A stretch of 64,000 nt of DNA from Pseudomonadota bacterium (GTDB lineage: Bacteria; Pseudomonadota; Gammaproteobacteria; Burkholderiales; Burkholderiaceae_E), in contig CAUJHG010000035.1 in NCBI GenBank assembly GCA_963204785.1, positions 1 through 64,000 of the forward strand, written 5' to 3'. Of the stretch, positions 357 to 5,344 are shown in pieces (position 1 is the stretch's first letter; the number at the start of each line of letters is the position of its first letter). A model generated the notes under the pieces. It saw nothing but the letters and a program-made list of their open reading frames with translations. It made no database searches and was not told where the DNA came from. A program made the position numbers and the translations under genes.

Positions 357-721
357 TGGTGGAGCCGGCGGGAATCGAACCCGCGTCCGCAAGTCCTCTA
401 CGACCAGTTCTACATGCTTAGTCGATCTATTTGGGTCTCGATGCGGACTTAGCCGGTCGACAGGCCGGTACGCACCCAGTCACCTACTTTTTAGCTCTCC
501 GACAAGTGACCCGCCGGAGCACGATCCGATGTGAATGACACTGCCGCTCCCTTGCGGGAACCCGGGCCATCGGAAACCCGGTGCAGTGGCTTAGGCCTTA
601 AGCGGCCAGAGCGAAACGCTCGTCGTTGGCGTTTGTGGTTTTGCCAATGGATTAACGAGGAAAAGGCGCCTCGGCATGCCCTGTGCCGCTTCGCTACCCA
701 CGTCGAAACCAGGTCGGCCCC
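357..721 (-). ncRNA. ssrA: tmRNA (transfer-messenger RNA)
   Basis: Minus strand starts GGGGCCG and ends CGGCTCC-ACCA, giving a 7-bp acceptor stem with a G3-U pair. Contains GTTCGATTCCCGCCGGCTCC and the tag ORF GCC AAC GAC GAG CGT TTC GCT CTG GCC GCT TAA = ANDERFALAA* (630..598). Confidence 0.96.
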
Positions 722-823: not shown

Positions 824-2698
824 TCAGAACCAGCCGGTGACCCCGACCCCGACGTACCGGCGCCAGTACCCTTCGCCGCCACTGGCCACCCCCATCGAGC
901 CGCCCGAGCCGCCCGCATAGGCGTGCACGCGCAGCGAGCGATGCAGGTCGTAGCCGGCGGAGAGCTCCCACAGGTTCGGGTGCCCGCTGCTGCGCTGGCC
1001 CCAGCCGTCCTCCTCGCGAGCGATGCCCAGGCCGAGCTTCAGGGTGAAGTCCCAGGGCCGGGCTTCATGGCCGAGGGCCAGGTACGCGCGCGCCTCGCGA
1101 TAGCTGCGCGGGTTCCAGTAGCCCCGGGCCGGGCGCGTCGCGGAGCTCGGGTCGGAGCTGCGGAAGGCCATCGCTTCGACGCCCACGACCACCTTGGGCT
1201 GCGAGCGCAGCTGGTGGTCTGCGCGCAGGTTCAGGCGGGTGCGCTGGTTGCCGTCGTCGAACCGCAGTCCCGCAAGGGCGGCGGAGATCGAGGAGGCGGG
1301 CTGCCAGCGCCAACGCGCGCCGACCGACGCGACGTCGACCGTGACCCGATTCGCAACTGCGAGCGGAGTCTCGGCCACCTCGCGTCCGAGTTCACCGTCC
1401 ACCCGCAGGGCGTCCGTGGGCAGCCAGTGGGCGCGCGCGGCGCCGGTCACCGGGTGCCAGTCGCCGTAGCGGTTGGCCTGCACCGTGAGGCCCACCCAGG
1501 CCGGGCCGCGATCGGCGGGCGTGCCGATCGCCTCGGCGTCGCTTGCGAGCCGGGTGCGCCAGGTGAGACCGAGGCGCTCGCCGCGGGCGGCGCGGGTCGG
1601 TTCGGTGAGGTCCACCCAACGCGCGGCGAGCTCCACGCTGCTCGCCTGCGTCGGCCGCCAGCCGGCGGAGGCGGTGGTGGTGCGCGTGTCGAGCCGGTCG
1701 CGGTCGGTGGCGAACTCGACGCTGGCATCGGCCCAGGACTGCAGCTCCCGCCCGGTGCGGTGATCGCGCAGCCAGCGGGCTTCGGGATGCTCGAGCCCAT
1801 CGAGCGCGGCGTGCGCGAGCCGGTCGTAGCCTGCCCAGCGCAGGGCGCGGGCGTGATCGATGCGCGCGTCGACCGGGGCTTGCAGACCGGCGGAGCGGTC
1901 GCGGGCGAAGCCGTCGCGGTAGGCGGCCACCGCTTCGCGATGCCGCCCGGCGAAGTTGCGGGCCTGGGCCAGTCCGTAGCGGCTTGCGCGGTCGCCGGGA
2001 TCCTCGCGCAGCAGCTGCTCGTAGGCGGCGATCGCCTCGTCGTACCGGTCCATCCAGGCCAGGGTCTGCGCCCTGGCGCGTGCGATCCTGCTGTCCGCCG
2101 GGCGCAGGGCGTGCGCACGTTCGTAGGCCTGCAGGGCCTCGGCGAGGCGGCCGTCGTTGCGGCGGGCCTGCGCGAGCCCATCCCAGGCGTCGAAGCCGTC
2201 GTCGCCGCCCGCGAAGGCGGCCGGGTGTGCGCTGACCTCCAGGAACAGCGGTTCGGCGCGGGCGGGCTCGCCGGCCCACAGCGTCTGCCAGGCCAGCGAC
2301 AGCAGCACGTCGGGACGGCGCGACGGCGCCAGCTCGAGGACCCTGCGATAGCGTTCGGCGGCGTCGGCATTGCGGTCGGCGAAGCCGTGCACGCGCGCCG
2401 ACTCGATCAGGAGGTCGACGTCCCCGGGGGCGGCGGCTTCGAGCGCCCGCCAGCGGGGCAGGGCGTCGGCCCAGTCGCGGCGCTCGGTGGCTGCGCGCGC
2501 CATCGCGCGCATCGCGCCCAGGTCGCGGTCCTCATCCGCTACGCCCTGCGCAGATCTCGGCTCAGCCGCAGGCGCCGCCTGGGCAAGCGCGGTTCCGGGC
2601 GTGGCAAGCGCGGCCAGCCCGAGCGAAAGCGCCGCCGCGAGGACAGCTCCGTGATGCGCGGGGATCGCCCGCTGGCGGTCCGTCTGGCGAGGCCTCAT
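824..2698 (-). CDS. TPR-containing outer-membrane beta-barrel protein, PgaA-like polysaccharide exporter
   Basis: 624 aa. Signal peptide, TPR-like repeats (DALPRWRALEAAAPGDVDLL..., EALQAYERAHALRPADSR...) and a C-terminal beta-barrel ending ...YVGVGVTGWF. ATG overlaps the pgaC stop (ATGA). Confidence 0.8.
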   Translation of the reverse strand: MRPRQTDRQRAIPAHHGAVLAAALSLGLAALATPGTALAQAAPAAEPRSAQGVADEDRDLGAMRAMARAATERRDWADALPRWRALEAAAPGDVDLLIESARVHGFADRNADAAERYRRVLELAPSRRPDVLLSLAWQTLWAGEPARAEPLFLEVSAHPAAFAGGDDGFDAWDGLAQARRNDGRLAEALQAYERAHALRPADSRIARARAQTLAWMDRYDEAIAAYEQLLREDPGDRASRYGLAQARNFAGRHREAVAAYRDGFARDRSAGLQAPVDARIDHARALRWAGYDRLAHAALDGLEHPEARWLRDHRTGRELQSWADASVEFATDRDRLDTRTTTASAGWRPTQASSVELAARWVDLTEPTRAARGERLGLTWRTRLASDAEAIGTPADRGPAWVGLTVQANRYGDWHPVTGAARAHWLPTDALRVDGELGREVAETPLAVANRVTVDVASVGARWRWQPASSISAALAGLRFDDGNQRTRLNLRADHQLRSQPKVVVGVEAMAFRSSDPSSATRPARGYWNPRSYREARAYLALGHEARPWDFTLKLGLGIAREEDGWGQRSSGHPNLWELSAGYDLHRSLRVHAYAGGSGGSMGVASGGEGYWRRYVGVGVTGWF

Positions 2699-3957
2699 GC
2701 TGCCGACCCGGTGCGTTGCGTGTTCCAGCGCACCGGTGTGCGCGTCGGTCTGCGGAACAGCCAGTGCAGCGACAGCACCGTGCCCAGCGACAGGAACATC
2801 CAGTAGACGATCGGGTACCAGACCGCGTAGGGCAGCATCGCGAGGATCGAGCGGTCGTAGCGGCGGTCGATCAGGGTGCCGATGCTCAGCTGCGCCAGGC
2901 ACAGGGTCCCGATCGTCATGCCCCACAGGTTGGGGATCGGCGAGGCGCCCACCGGGGGCAGGCCCGCGGCCCAGGAGACGGTCCAGATCGTGGTCAGGAC
3001 GACGAAGCAGAGCGCCCAAAGTGTGGAGAGCGAGGATTCCACGTACACCGGCCACATGCGCCGGTACTTCCAGTGCGCCATCACGTCGCGGTGCTTGTGC
3101 AGCACCTGCATCAGTCCGCGCGCCCAGCGCAGCCGCTGCTTCCACAGGCCGCGGTAGCTCGCGGGCACGGTCATCCAGCACACGGCGCGCGGCTCGTAGC
3201 GCACGTCGTAGAACCGCTTCTGGAGCTTCCAGGTGAGCTCGATGTCCTCGGTGGGCATCTCCGGGCTGAAGCCGCCCACGTCGAGCAGCGCGCTGCGCCG
3301 GAACGCGGCCACCACGCCGGAGACCGTGACGATGCGGCCCCAGATCCGCTGCGAGCGGCGCAGCAGGCTGACGATCGAAGAGAACTCGATCGACTGGAGC
3401 CGCGCGAGGAAGGTGCTGGTGTTGCGCACCCGCGGGTTGCCGGTGACCGCGGCCACGCGCGCCGACGCGAAGTGCGGCGCCATCTGCCGCAGCAGGTCCG
3501 GCTCGGGCTCGGCATCGGCGTCCAGGATCAGCACGATCTCGCCGCGCGCCAGGGGCAGCGCGTCGTTCAGGGCCATCGCCTTGCCCTCGTTGGCCAGCTT
3601 GCGCACCACCCGCAGCTTCGCGTCCTCGCCCAGCTCCGCGAGCGCCGCGACGGTGCCGTCGGTCGAGCCGTCGTCGACGACGATCACCTCGAAGTCCGGG
3701 TAGTCCATGGCGAGCATCGCGCGCACCGAGCGCGCGATCACTGCCTCCTCGTTGTGCGCGGGCACCAGCACGCTGGCGGCGGGGAGGAGACCCGGCTGGG
3801 CGTCGACTTCGCGACCGGGGCGTTCCCAGCGCACGCGGAACATGAGCGCCGTGGTGATCCAGAGGATGCTGGTCGCGATCGGGTAGGCCGCGAAATAGAT
3901 CAGCGCCGCCTGGTAGACGATCGAGTGCTGCAGAACGGACAGGAACTCGGTGAGCAT
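2695..3957 (-). CDS. pgaC: Poly-beta-1,6-N-acetyl-D-glucosamine synthase-like family 2 glycosyltransferase
   Basis: VVDDGSTDGT, DADAEPEP, EDIELTWKLQ and QRLRWARG (QxxRW) motifs, flanked by transmembrane helices. Confidence 0.88.
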   Translation of the reverse strand: MLTEFLSVLQHSIVYQAALIYFAAYPIATSILWITTALMFRVRWERPGREVDAQPGLLPAASVLVPAHNEEAVIARSVRAMLAMDYPDFEVIVVDDGSTDGTVAALAELGEDAKLRVVRKLANEGKAMALNDALPLARGEIVLILDADAEPEPDLLRQMAPHFASARVAAVTGNPRVRNTSTFLARLQSIEFSSIVSLLRRSQRIWGRIVTVSGVVAAFRRSALLDVGGFSPEMPTEDIELTWKLQKRFYDVRYEPRAVCWMTVPASYRGLWKQRLRWARGLMQVLHKHRDVMAHWKYRRMWPVYVESSLSTLWALCFVVLTTIWTVSWAAGLPPVGASPIPNLWGMTIGTLCLAQLSIGTLIDRRYDRSILAMLPYAVWYPIVYWMFLSLGTVLSLHWLFRRPTRTPVRWNTQRTGSAA

Positions 3958-4436
3958 CAGCCGGTGCTCCGCGTGAGGGTTCTGGTGGGGGCGCCGCCGT
4001 TGCCACCGTTGTGCAGACCGTGCGCCGTCGATCCCTCTTTGGCCATCCGATAGACCTTGCGCTCGCCGTCGAGCTCCACGGTGATCAGGCGCGCGTGCGC
4101 GAGCGCAGGCCAGTCCGCGACCACCTCGCGTCCGTTCCAGTCGCGCGGGTAGCTCTCGTCGATCCTCGGAACACCGGTGCGTGCGCCCTTGCGCCGATGG
4201 ATGCCGAGGTTGTGCAGGATCCAGGCGATCGTGATCGTCGGCAGCACCACCAGGGAACCGACGATCAGCCAGGACAGCGCCTCGCTGTCCCAGGGGCGGC
4301 CGAGCACCTCCAGCCAGCCCCAGACGAACAGCGCCCAGCCCGCGACGACCACCACCGTGTGGGCGAGACGCTGGGGCCAGCCGGACAGACTGGCTGCGCG
4401 CGTGCGCGCGCCCGGATCGATCGTCGCCTGGCTCAC
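3957..4436 (-). CDS. pgaD: PgaD-like membrane subunit of PNAG synthase
   Basis: Small protein with two hydrophobic segments (AHTVVVVAGWALFVWGWLEVL, LIVGSLVVLPTITIAWILHNL) immediately upstream of pgaC. GTG start overlaps the upstream stop (GTGA). Confidence 0.75.
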   Translation of the reverse strand: MSQATIDPGARTRAASLSGWPQRLAHTVVVVAGWALFVWGWLEVLGRPWDSEALSWLIVGSLVVLPTITIAWILHNLGIHRRKGARTGVPRIDESYPRDWNGREVVADWPALAHARLITVELDGERKVYRMAKEGSTAHGLHNGGNGGAPTRTLTRSTG

Positions 4437-5344
4437 GCCTGGCGGTTCCGCTGCCTGCGCGTGGCGGCCGCGAGCGCGACGGCGCCGATCGCCAGGACGC
4501 CGGCGGTCGCGGGCACCGGGACCGGCCTGGGGTCGTTCACCAGGTGCTCGGTCGGCACGGTCAGCCACTCGCCGTCGCCCTGGCGCCAGGCGAGGTTTAC
4601 CACGCCGACCTCGAGGCGATCATAGGTGCCGAGCTCGAAGCGGTACAGCCCGGTGCCGAGCAGCAGGTCCTCGTCGAAGCCGAGCCGGTCGCGCGCGCTC
4701 AGGAAGTCCGAGGAGATCTCCAGTGGCGTGGCGTCGGCGCCCCAGATGCGCAGGAAGAAGCCGTCGTCGTAGAGCACCCCGAAGTTGTAGCTGCCGGGAT
4801 CGGTGATCCGCAGGTAGCCGGTGTAGTGCGAGGTCCAGTTGTCCTGGGGACCGCTGGTGCCCGCGAAGAGGGCGCCGGGGAGCGCACCGACCGTGCCCCA
4901 GCCCGAGTAGCCGGCGCTTGCATACTCGGCGTCGGAGTGGTCGATCGTGGCGACAACTCCGCTCCAGCCCTGCACCGGCAGGGTCGATCCGGCAGCATTG
5001 ATCGCCGCCCAGTCGGCGAGTCCCCAGATTCCGGTGCCCCAGCCGTATTCGCCGATCCGCTGGAAGCCCGCTCCCGGACTGTTGGAATACTCGCCGACGC
5101 CCGGCTCGATCTCCTTCCAGTACACCGAGGTCCCGGTCCAGTTGCCGTCGATGCGCAGGAAGCTCGCGTTCGCGCCGGTGCCGGCAGCGAACTGCCCGGC
5201 CATCAGGGGGTCGAGCGTGATCGCGGCCTGTGCCGCGGGCACGGCGAGCAGTGCCGAGAGGGCTGTCAGTGCCAGGGCCGCCATCGAGCGCGCAGGATGC
5301 CCAGCGGCGTGCCGGATCGTCTTCCGGTTCTGTTTCATGTTCAT
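4433..5344 (-). CDS. PEP-CTERM-like exported protein with PA14-type domain
   Basis: N-terminal signal sequence; TGYLRITDPGSYNFGVLYDDGFFLRIWG resembles PA14; C-terminus VPVPATAGVLAIGAVALAAATRRQRNRQA has the PEP-CTERM layout (VPxPA - hydrophobic helix - basic tail). An upstream ATG at 5392 is possible. Confidence 0.75.
   Translation of the reverse strand: MNMKQNRKTIRHAAGHPARSMAALALTALSALLAVPAAQAAITLDPLMAGQFAAGTGANASFLRIDGNWTGTSVYWKEIEPGVGEYSNSPGAGFQRIGEYGWGTGIWGLADWAAINAAGSTLPVQGWSGVVATIDHSDAEYASAGYSGWGTVGALPGALFAGTSGPQDNWTSHYTGYLRITDPGSYNFGVLYDDGFFLRIWGADATPLEISSDFLSARDRLGFDEDLLLGTGLYRFELGTYDRLEVGVVNLAWRQGDGEWLTVPTEHLVNDPRPVPVPATAGVLAIGAVALAAATRRQRNRQA

Follow-up and report, generated by a model that had tools for sequence, protein, structure and literature searches.

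A conserved four-gene PNAG-type synthase cassette of Burkholderiales that lacks PgaB and begins with a putative exosortase-sorted lectin

Introduction

Among the nearest known counterparts of the locus studied here are the pgaABCD and hmsHFRS operons of Escherichia coli and Bordetella, which represent synthase-dependent secretion of the poly-N-acetylglucosamine (PNAG) type. Here we analyse a four-gene operon that occupies positions 824-5344 of a 64,000-nucleotide stretch of genomic DNA (the window) from a bacterium of the genus Quisquiliibacterium (Burkholderiales). Its genes lie head to tail on the minus strand with overlapping ends, and a tmRNA gene follows them:

4433..5344, minus strand: gene 1, PEP-CTERM protein with a PA14 lectin-like fold, 303 amino acids (open reading frame, hidden Markov models, structural model and fold search)
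3957..4436, minus strand: gene 2, PgaD-like small membrane protein, 159 amino acids (hhalign with canonical PgaD)
2695..3957, minus strand: gene 3, PgaC-like GT2 polysaccharide synthase, 420 amino acids (TIGR03937, alignment, tree and motifs)
824..2698, minus strand: gene 4, PgaA-like exporter, 624 amino acids (PF21197, structural model and fold search)
357-721, minus strand: tmRNA gene, downstream bound of the operon and outside the cassette (ARAGORN)

Like pgaABCD and hmsHFRS, the locus combines in a single operon a PgaC-type GT2 enzyme with its catalytic motifs, a putative PgaD-like partner and a protein predicted to consist of TPR repeats and a 16-strand barrel. Unlike them, it has no PgaB, its order is PEP-D-C-A instead of A-B-C-D, and it contains an extra gene for a PEP-CTERM protein with a PA14 domain; moreover, its clade of PgaC carries a DADA motif and its exporter is short of about half the TPR domain. 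Our favoured reading, which we hold at a probability of roughly one half, is that this is a self-contained cassette for synthase-dependent exopolysaccharide of the pga/PNAG type in which an exosortase-sorted lectin would retain the polymer in place of deacetylation by PgaB.

A 2020 survey describes, in its accessible portion, arrangements of pga genes in environmental bacteria in which pgaC is rearranged and both pgaB and pgaD are undetected (PMC7112194). The cassette shares the rearranged pgaC and the undetected pgaB with these arrangements, whereas that portion of the survey reports no PEP-CTERM or lectin gene, and the cassette does have a divergent PgaD-like gene. The survey may include some cassette loci, and the absence of PgaB is therefore not wholly new.

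On the side of protein sorting, most PEP-CTERM genes form operons of one gene, in Proteobacteria frequently preceded by a sigma-54 site (PMC1569441). Our locus resembles the XrtA/PEP-CTERM system in that its genome has an XrtA with an EpsI domain and that gene 1, which encodes a signal sequence and a PEP-CTERM-type tail, is linked to genes for exopolysaccharide; unlike in that system, gene 1 is the first gene of a synthase operon outside the XrtA cluster, with no sigma-54 site found ahead of it. PepA (NF033554), a flocculation-associated PEP-CTERM protein of Aquincola, converts soluble exopolysaccharide into a bound form (PMC9850573), and may by analogy serve as a precedent for a PEP-CTERM protein that binds exopolysaccharide to cells. 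Gene 1 is like PepA in its C-terminal tail and in the proposed binding of exopolysaccharide to the cell, but its match to the PepA family is confined to the tail (19.6 bits, cut-off 80), and PepA adjoins prsT, outside any synthase operon. Finally, gene 1 shares its predicted fold and an Asp-Asp pair with the PA14 adhesin lectins MpPA14, Flo5, Epa1 and Cea1, from which it differs by an identity of only 10-19% and by a PEP-CTERM tail instead of RTX or glycosylphosphatidylinositol anchoring. In the open-access papers searched, we came upon no report of a synthase operon with an exosortase-type lectin as a fixed member, and a PA14 domain together with an exosortase came up in one myxobacterial paper on a different subject. 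The parts are known; their fixed combination with the loss of PgaB appears to be undescribed.

Results

A profile of gene 1 was searched against one genome per species (85,462 species), and loci were picked without regard to gene order. The search returned 17 loci, all of which carry homologues of the PEP-CTERM protein, PgaD, PgaC and PgaA in that order on one strand, an agreement that is more than chance. The carriers comprise Quisquiliibacterium, Azohydromonas, five Methyloversatilis, two Rubrivivax and several metagenome-assembled genomes (MAGs). With the window and a further locus, G236, whose stretch stops inside PgaC and leaves its porin unseen, the set amounts to 19 loci. The order given in a preliminary description of this DNA (PEP-CTERM/PA14 protein, PgaD, PgaC, PgaA-like exporter) is confirmed and recurs across the relatives. 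The interpretation offered there, a coupling between the PEP-CTERM protein and the synthase operon, stands in part, with the added support of synteny of the two in about eight genera or MAG lineages. Checks of the refuting conditions proposed with it, which covered the exosortase, the PEP-CTERM-type tail and a full pgaB elsewhere in the genome, left it standing.

In the window all four reading frames are open, the ATG of gene 1 has AAGGTGG ahead of it, and the overlaps claimed for the junctions are exact on the minus strand (GTGA at 4436-4433, TGATG at 3959-3955 and ATGA at 2698-2695). Across the loci, the PEP-PgaD and PgaD-PgaC junctions are overlapping or short nearly everywhere, while the PgaC-porin junction is less sure, the start of the porin being uncertain in several cases. 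Cassettes are found at differing chromosomal sites, and their flanking genes vary between genera. A fifth cassette gene was sought by clustering the flanking open reading frames across loci and was rejected, the neighbours in common being restricted to close relatives; as no further neighbour is common to the loci, the unit consists of four genes. In the window, the tmRNA gene after gene 4 likewise indicates that the operon ends there and that no fifth gene has been cut off, though the contig end is near.

When a profile of the cassette PgaC clade was run on 400 Burkholderiales genomes, five matches were obtained at 692-866 bits, followed by a gap down to 415 bits, and these five genomes are exactly those with a strong gene-1 match. 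The pairwise distance matrix of gene 1 is correlated with the matrices of PgaC, PgaD and PgaA (r between 0.62 and 0.71; 0.66 for PgaC and 0.71 for PgaA, with 0 of 2000 permutations as high), as would be expected if the genes travel together; species descent alone would give some correlation too. Taken together, the four genes are a conserved cassette.

Counts of PgaB and exosortase refer to 18 carrier genomes, each taken once, with the genome behind locus L059 left out. A full PgaB, meaning a match over the TIGR03938 cut-off, occurs in none of the 18. The absence of PgaB claimed for the window also extends to its genome, where a TIGR03938 search found no full pgaB and a single partial match of 36 bits, in a short deacetylase of the XrtA cluster. 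This assembly is a draft of 83 contigs, 93% complete, in which a single absence is weak, and it is the 18 genomes together that make the argument. A pgaB hidden past the contig end was considered and is ruled out by the tmRNA gene after gene 4 and by the lack of a full PgaB genome-wide.

Exosortases score over the cut-off in 17 of the 18 carrier genomes, compared to 151 of the 400 Burkholderiales (38%). The window genome has one, XrtA (TIGR03109, 301.9 bits, cut-off 208), which carries an EpsI domain and lies in an exopolysaccharide gene cluster on contig 34; the exosortase that a sorted gene-1 product presupposes is thus present. The same cluster holds two CE4-type deacetylases (L015:1562-2599 and L015:809-1468), one PgaB-N-like in part and one NodB/PdaB-like.

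Canonical pga operons with PgaB are found in four genomes of the same genus or family that have neither the cassette nor a gene-1 homologue (G008, G015, G027 and G035; loci L038-L041), and their PgaC is only 44-47% identical to gene 3. Mutual exclusion between the cassette and canonical pga was considered and not retained: no examined genome has both, but the expected overlap is <1 in 400 genomes.

The product of gene 1 is laid out as a candidate signal peptide (residues ~1-40), a PA14 domain (~41-272) that includes an Asp-Asp pair at 193-194, and a PEP-CTERM-type tail (275-303). Its Pfam match to PA14 is weak (21.4 bits, just below the cut-off of 24). The predicted model (pLDDT 83) was compared by Foldseek and retrieved, at probability 1.00, the PA14 lectins Epa1, a Marinomonas PA14 domain, Flo5 and Cea1 bound to N-acetylglucosamine (GlcNAc). 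TM-scores against these lectins are 0.35-0.45 on the query and 0.40-0.68 on the target, which reflects additional segments of the protein. In 19/19 gene-1 members the Asp-Asp pair is invariant, and it aligns with that of MpPA14, in which this pair (DcisD) coordinates the calcium ion that binds the sugar and GlcNAc ranks with the strongest ligands (PMC8092209). From the modelled fold and the conserved pair, we infer that gene 1 encodes a predicted calcium-dependent PA14 lectin; the fold further points to non-covalent lectin binding over covalent linkage.

The tail of this protein is conserved in the family, with TIGR02595 matches at E up to 1 in 15 of the 19 members and clearer tails among the orthologues (VPEPAT, IPEPS, LPGT). 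Five TIGR02595 tails exceed the cut-off in the window genome, gene 1 among them, and the PEP-CTERM-type tail that had been assigned to it is present, at the borderline score given below.

Gene 3 has PgaC/IcaA as its nearest family (TIGR03937, E=8e-118, 393.9 bits, just below the cut-off of 422.3; next family at 110.8 bits) and contains the motifs DDGS, DADA, TED and QRLRW, so that QxxRW is kept. When 19 cassette and 13 canonical PgaC sequences, that of E. coli included, are placed in one tree, the two groups separate with a support of 100/100. Being unrooted, the tree demonstrates separation and not direction; BcsA and the GT2 of the XrtA cluster were left out, as their branches are too long. 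For gene 2, neither Pfam nor NCBIfam gave a usable match to the window protein, while a profile of 17 members aligned with the canonical PgaD profile (hhalign probability 84.6%, E=6.8e-6). Its assignment as a putative PgaD is supported by position, size and this profile-profile comparison. The family names of the preliminary description fare unequally: hidden Markov models give strong support for PgaC, just below its cut-off, and fair support for PgaA, whereas PgaD was not recognised by Pfam or NCBIfam and needed the comparison of profiles.

Gene 4 matches the barrel of PgaA (PF21197, 41.5 bits, cut-off 27) and scores 70 bits on TIGR03939, far below its cut-off of 366.65. Its model (pLDDT 90) displays a TPR superhelix at ~50-319 followed by a 16-strand outer-membrane barrel at ~322-623, and the fold search returned BcsC, PelB and the PgaA barrel 4y25 (TM-score 0.78 on the target). 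The profile alignment to canonical PgaA starts near canonical residue 255, which means that about half of the PgaA TPR domain, the N-terminal half, is gone. In PgaA, the TPR domain is the part that forms a complex with PgaB (PMC5933820). The apparent shortening in the cassette exporter fits the loss of PgaB, though it does not prove this to be the reason.

Upstream of gene 1, no sigma-54/PrsR site scored better than shuffled sequence in the window, nor in most relatives (18 upstream regions tested), and a sigma-70-like promoter was likewise not found; the idea of a sigma-54/PrsR promoter for gene 1 of the window was rejected. Among the 18 regions, a sigma-54-like site stands out in G236 (shuffle p 0.01) and three more are marginal. 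The G236 site (L064), CTGGAACAGGAATTGCT, lies 55 bases upstream of the gene-1 start; as the best of 18 tested, it may be due to chance.

Three further observations concern the surroundings and the relatives of the locus. In Quisquiliibacterium transsilvanicum, the cassette and the tmRNA gene are separated by a same-strand gene for a MASE2-GGDEF diguanylate cyclase (G003:C2, L032:2267-3538), 12 bases 3' of the porin gene; the window has the tmRNA gene at the same position and no cyclase gene. The presence of this gene beside the cassette suggests control by cyclic di-GMP, as for PgaCD. The tmRNA tag reads ANDERFALAA in the window and ANDQRFALAA in Q. transsilvanicum. A sixth genome of the 400 Burkholderiales, G207, has only a weak gene-1-like PA14 match (G207:C98:289-810, L065), which falls within a 6100-residue frame that is probably a giant adhesin.

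Discussion

The previous analysis leads to a proposed mechanism that involves all four genes and XrtA. The PgaC-like synthase and its PgaD-like partner would polymerise and translocate a hexosamine polymer, most likely of beta-linked GlcNAc, which the TPR-barrel protein, to judge from its fold, would carry across the outer membrane. Since PgaB is absent, the polymer would probably leave the cell without deacetylation. In turn, XrtA would process the gene-1 lectin and place it on the surface, as its tail and the co-occurrence with exosortase suggest. Deacetylation of PNAG helps to hold the polymer on cells; here, the surface lectin would bind and retain the exported polymer, in place of the retention that follows from partial deacetylation by PgaB. 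Stated in its more specific form, as a branch of PNAG-type secretion that does without PgaB and retains the polymer by means of a calcium lectin, co-encoded and sorted by exosortase, and not by deacetylation, the proposal is more tentative, and we place it somewhat below even odds.

Several observations weigh against this mechanism. PA14 folds occur also in proteins that do not bind sugars. The tail of gene 1 in the window is borderline, with 11.6 bits in the whole-protein scan and 16.4 bits in the genome scan, for a cut-off of 16. No exosortase was seen in one of the carriers, G075, whose genome is 83% complete, and the enrichment in carriers (7e-7 by a plain binomial, 4e-4 when about eight lineages are counted) ignores kinship. 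The window genome encodes three Polysacc_deac_1 (CE4-type) proteins, two within the XrtA locus, that could act in trans. Lastly, the cassette synthases reach only 378-426 bits on TIGR03937, mostly just below the cut-off, compared to 588-648 for canonical PgaC, and every one of them has DADA in place of the canonical DGDA; TED or EED and QxxRW are retained, and one canonical row, L080, fits neither the DADA nor the DGDA pattern.

The separate clade, the scores below cut-off and the DADA motif imply that the sugar used by the cassette synthase may differ from that of PNAG, and the clade is best described as PgaC-like synthases whose predicted sugar specificity is not certain. The same machinery could then produce another polymer (a different hexosamine, a different linkage or a glucan), for which gene 1 would be the specific surface lectin. 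We consider this possible but rather unlikely, given that PgaC/IcaA is by far the nearest family of the synthase and that the porin barrel and the PgaD-like partner are of the pga type as well.

A second alternative assigns gene 1 to export itself, as a stand-in for PgaB that guides the polymer through the periplasm to the exporter, before or without processing by the exosortase. In its favour, gene 1 occupies an operon where an export partner is missing, a PA14 domain could bind the chain, and the TPR domain of the exporter has been remodelled. However, the conserved PEP-CTERM-type tail and the enrichment of exosortase in carriers indicate sorting, for which such a guide would have no need, and this explanation appears quite improbable to us.

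The cassette could also make ordinary, partly deacetylated PNAG, with a deacetylase of the XrtA cluster acting in trans and gene 1 as an accessory matrix protein. Of the three Polysacc_deac_1 proteins, one in the XrtA cluster is partly similar to the N-terminus of PgaB (66.6 bits, cut-off 321.9) and another is NodB/PdaB-like, and short PgaB-N-like deacetylases occur in several carrier genomes. These proteins, on the other hand, do not have the hydrolase domain of PgaB, no deacetylase is common to the cassette neighbourhoods, and XrtA clusters own a deacetylase family, TIGR03006 (NCBIfam), so that we judge the idea very unlikely. Direct transfer of gene 1 onto the cassette polymer by XrtA is highly improbable: exosortases have been proposed as transpeptidase-like enzymes in exopolysaccharide settings (PMC1569441) and gene 1 is co-encoded with the synthase, but XrtA of the window genome belongs to a separate exopolysaccharide cluster and most exosortase-bearing Burkholderiales have no cassette, which makes the cassette polymer an unlikely acceptor, and a lectin fold needs no covalent bond.

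Under the favoured reading, in which the sorted lectin retains a PNAG-type polymer, the cassette bears on the role of PEP-CTERM proteins in exopolysaccharide, a question left unanswered since the 2006 description of the exosortase system. With gene 1 fixed beside one synthase and one exporter, the operon names the partner polymer, in a system of four genes that is present in culturable strains; if true, gene 1 would encode a substrate of exosortase whose own operon identifies the polysaccharide that it partners. A further question raised by the cassette is whether PgaB is required for PNAG-type export, and a naturally occurring system that lacks both PgaB and about half of the PgaA TPR domain would reveal the minimal secretion machine. 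Its carriers are soil and water Burkholderiales, in which the product would be a PNAG-like biofilm polymer, and the cassette may account for the way in which a matrix forms in freshwater and wastewater members of the order such as Methyloversatilis and Rubrivivax.

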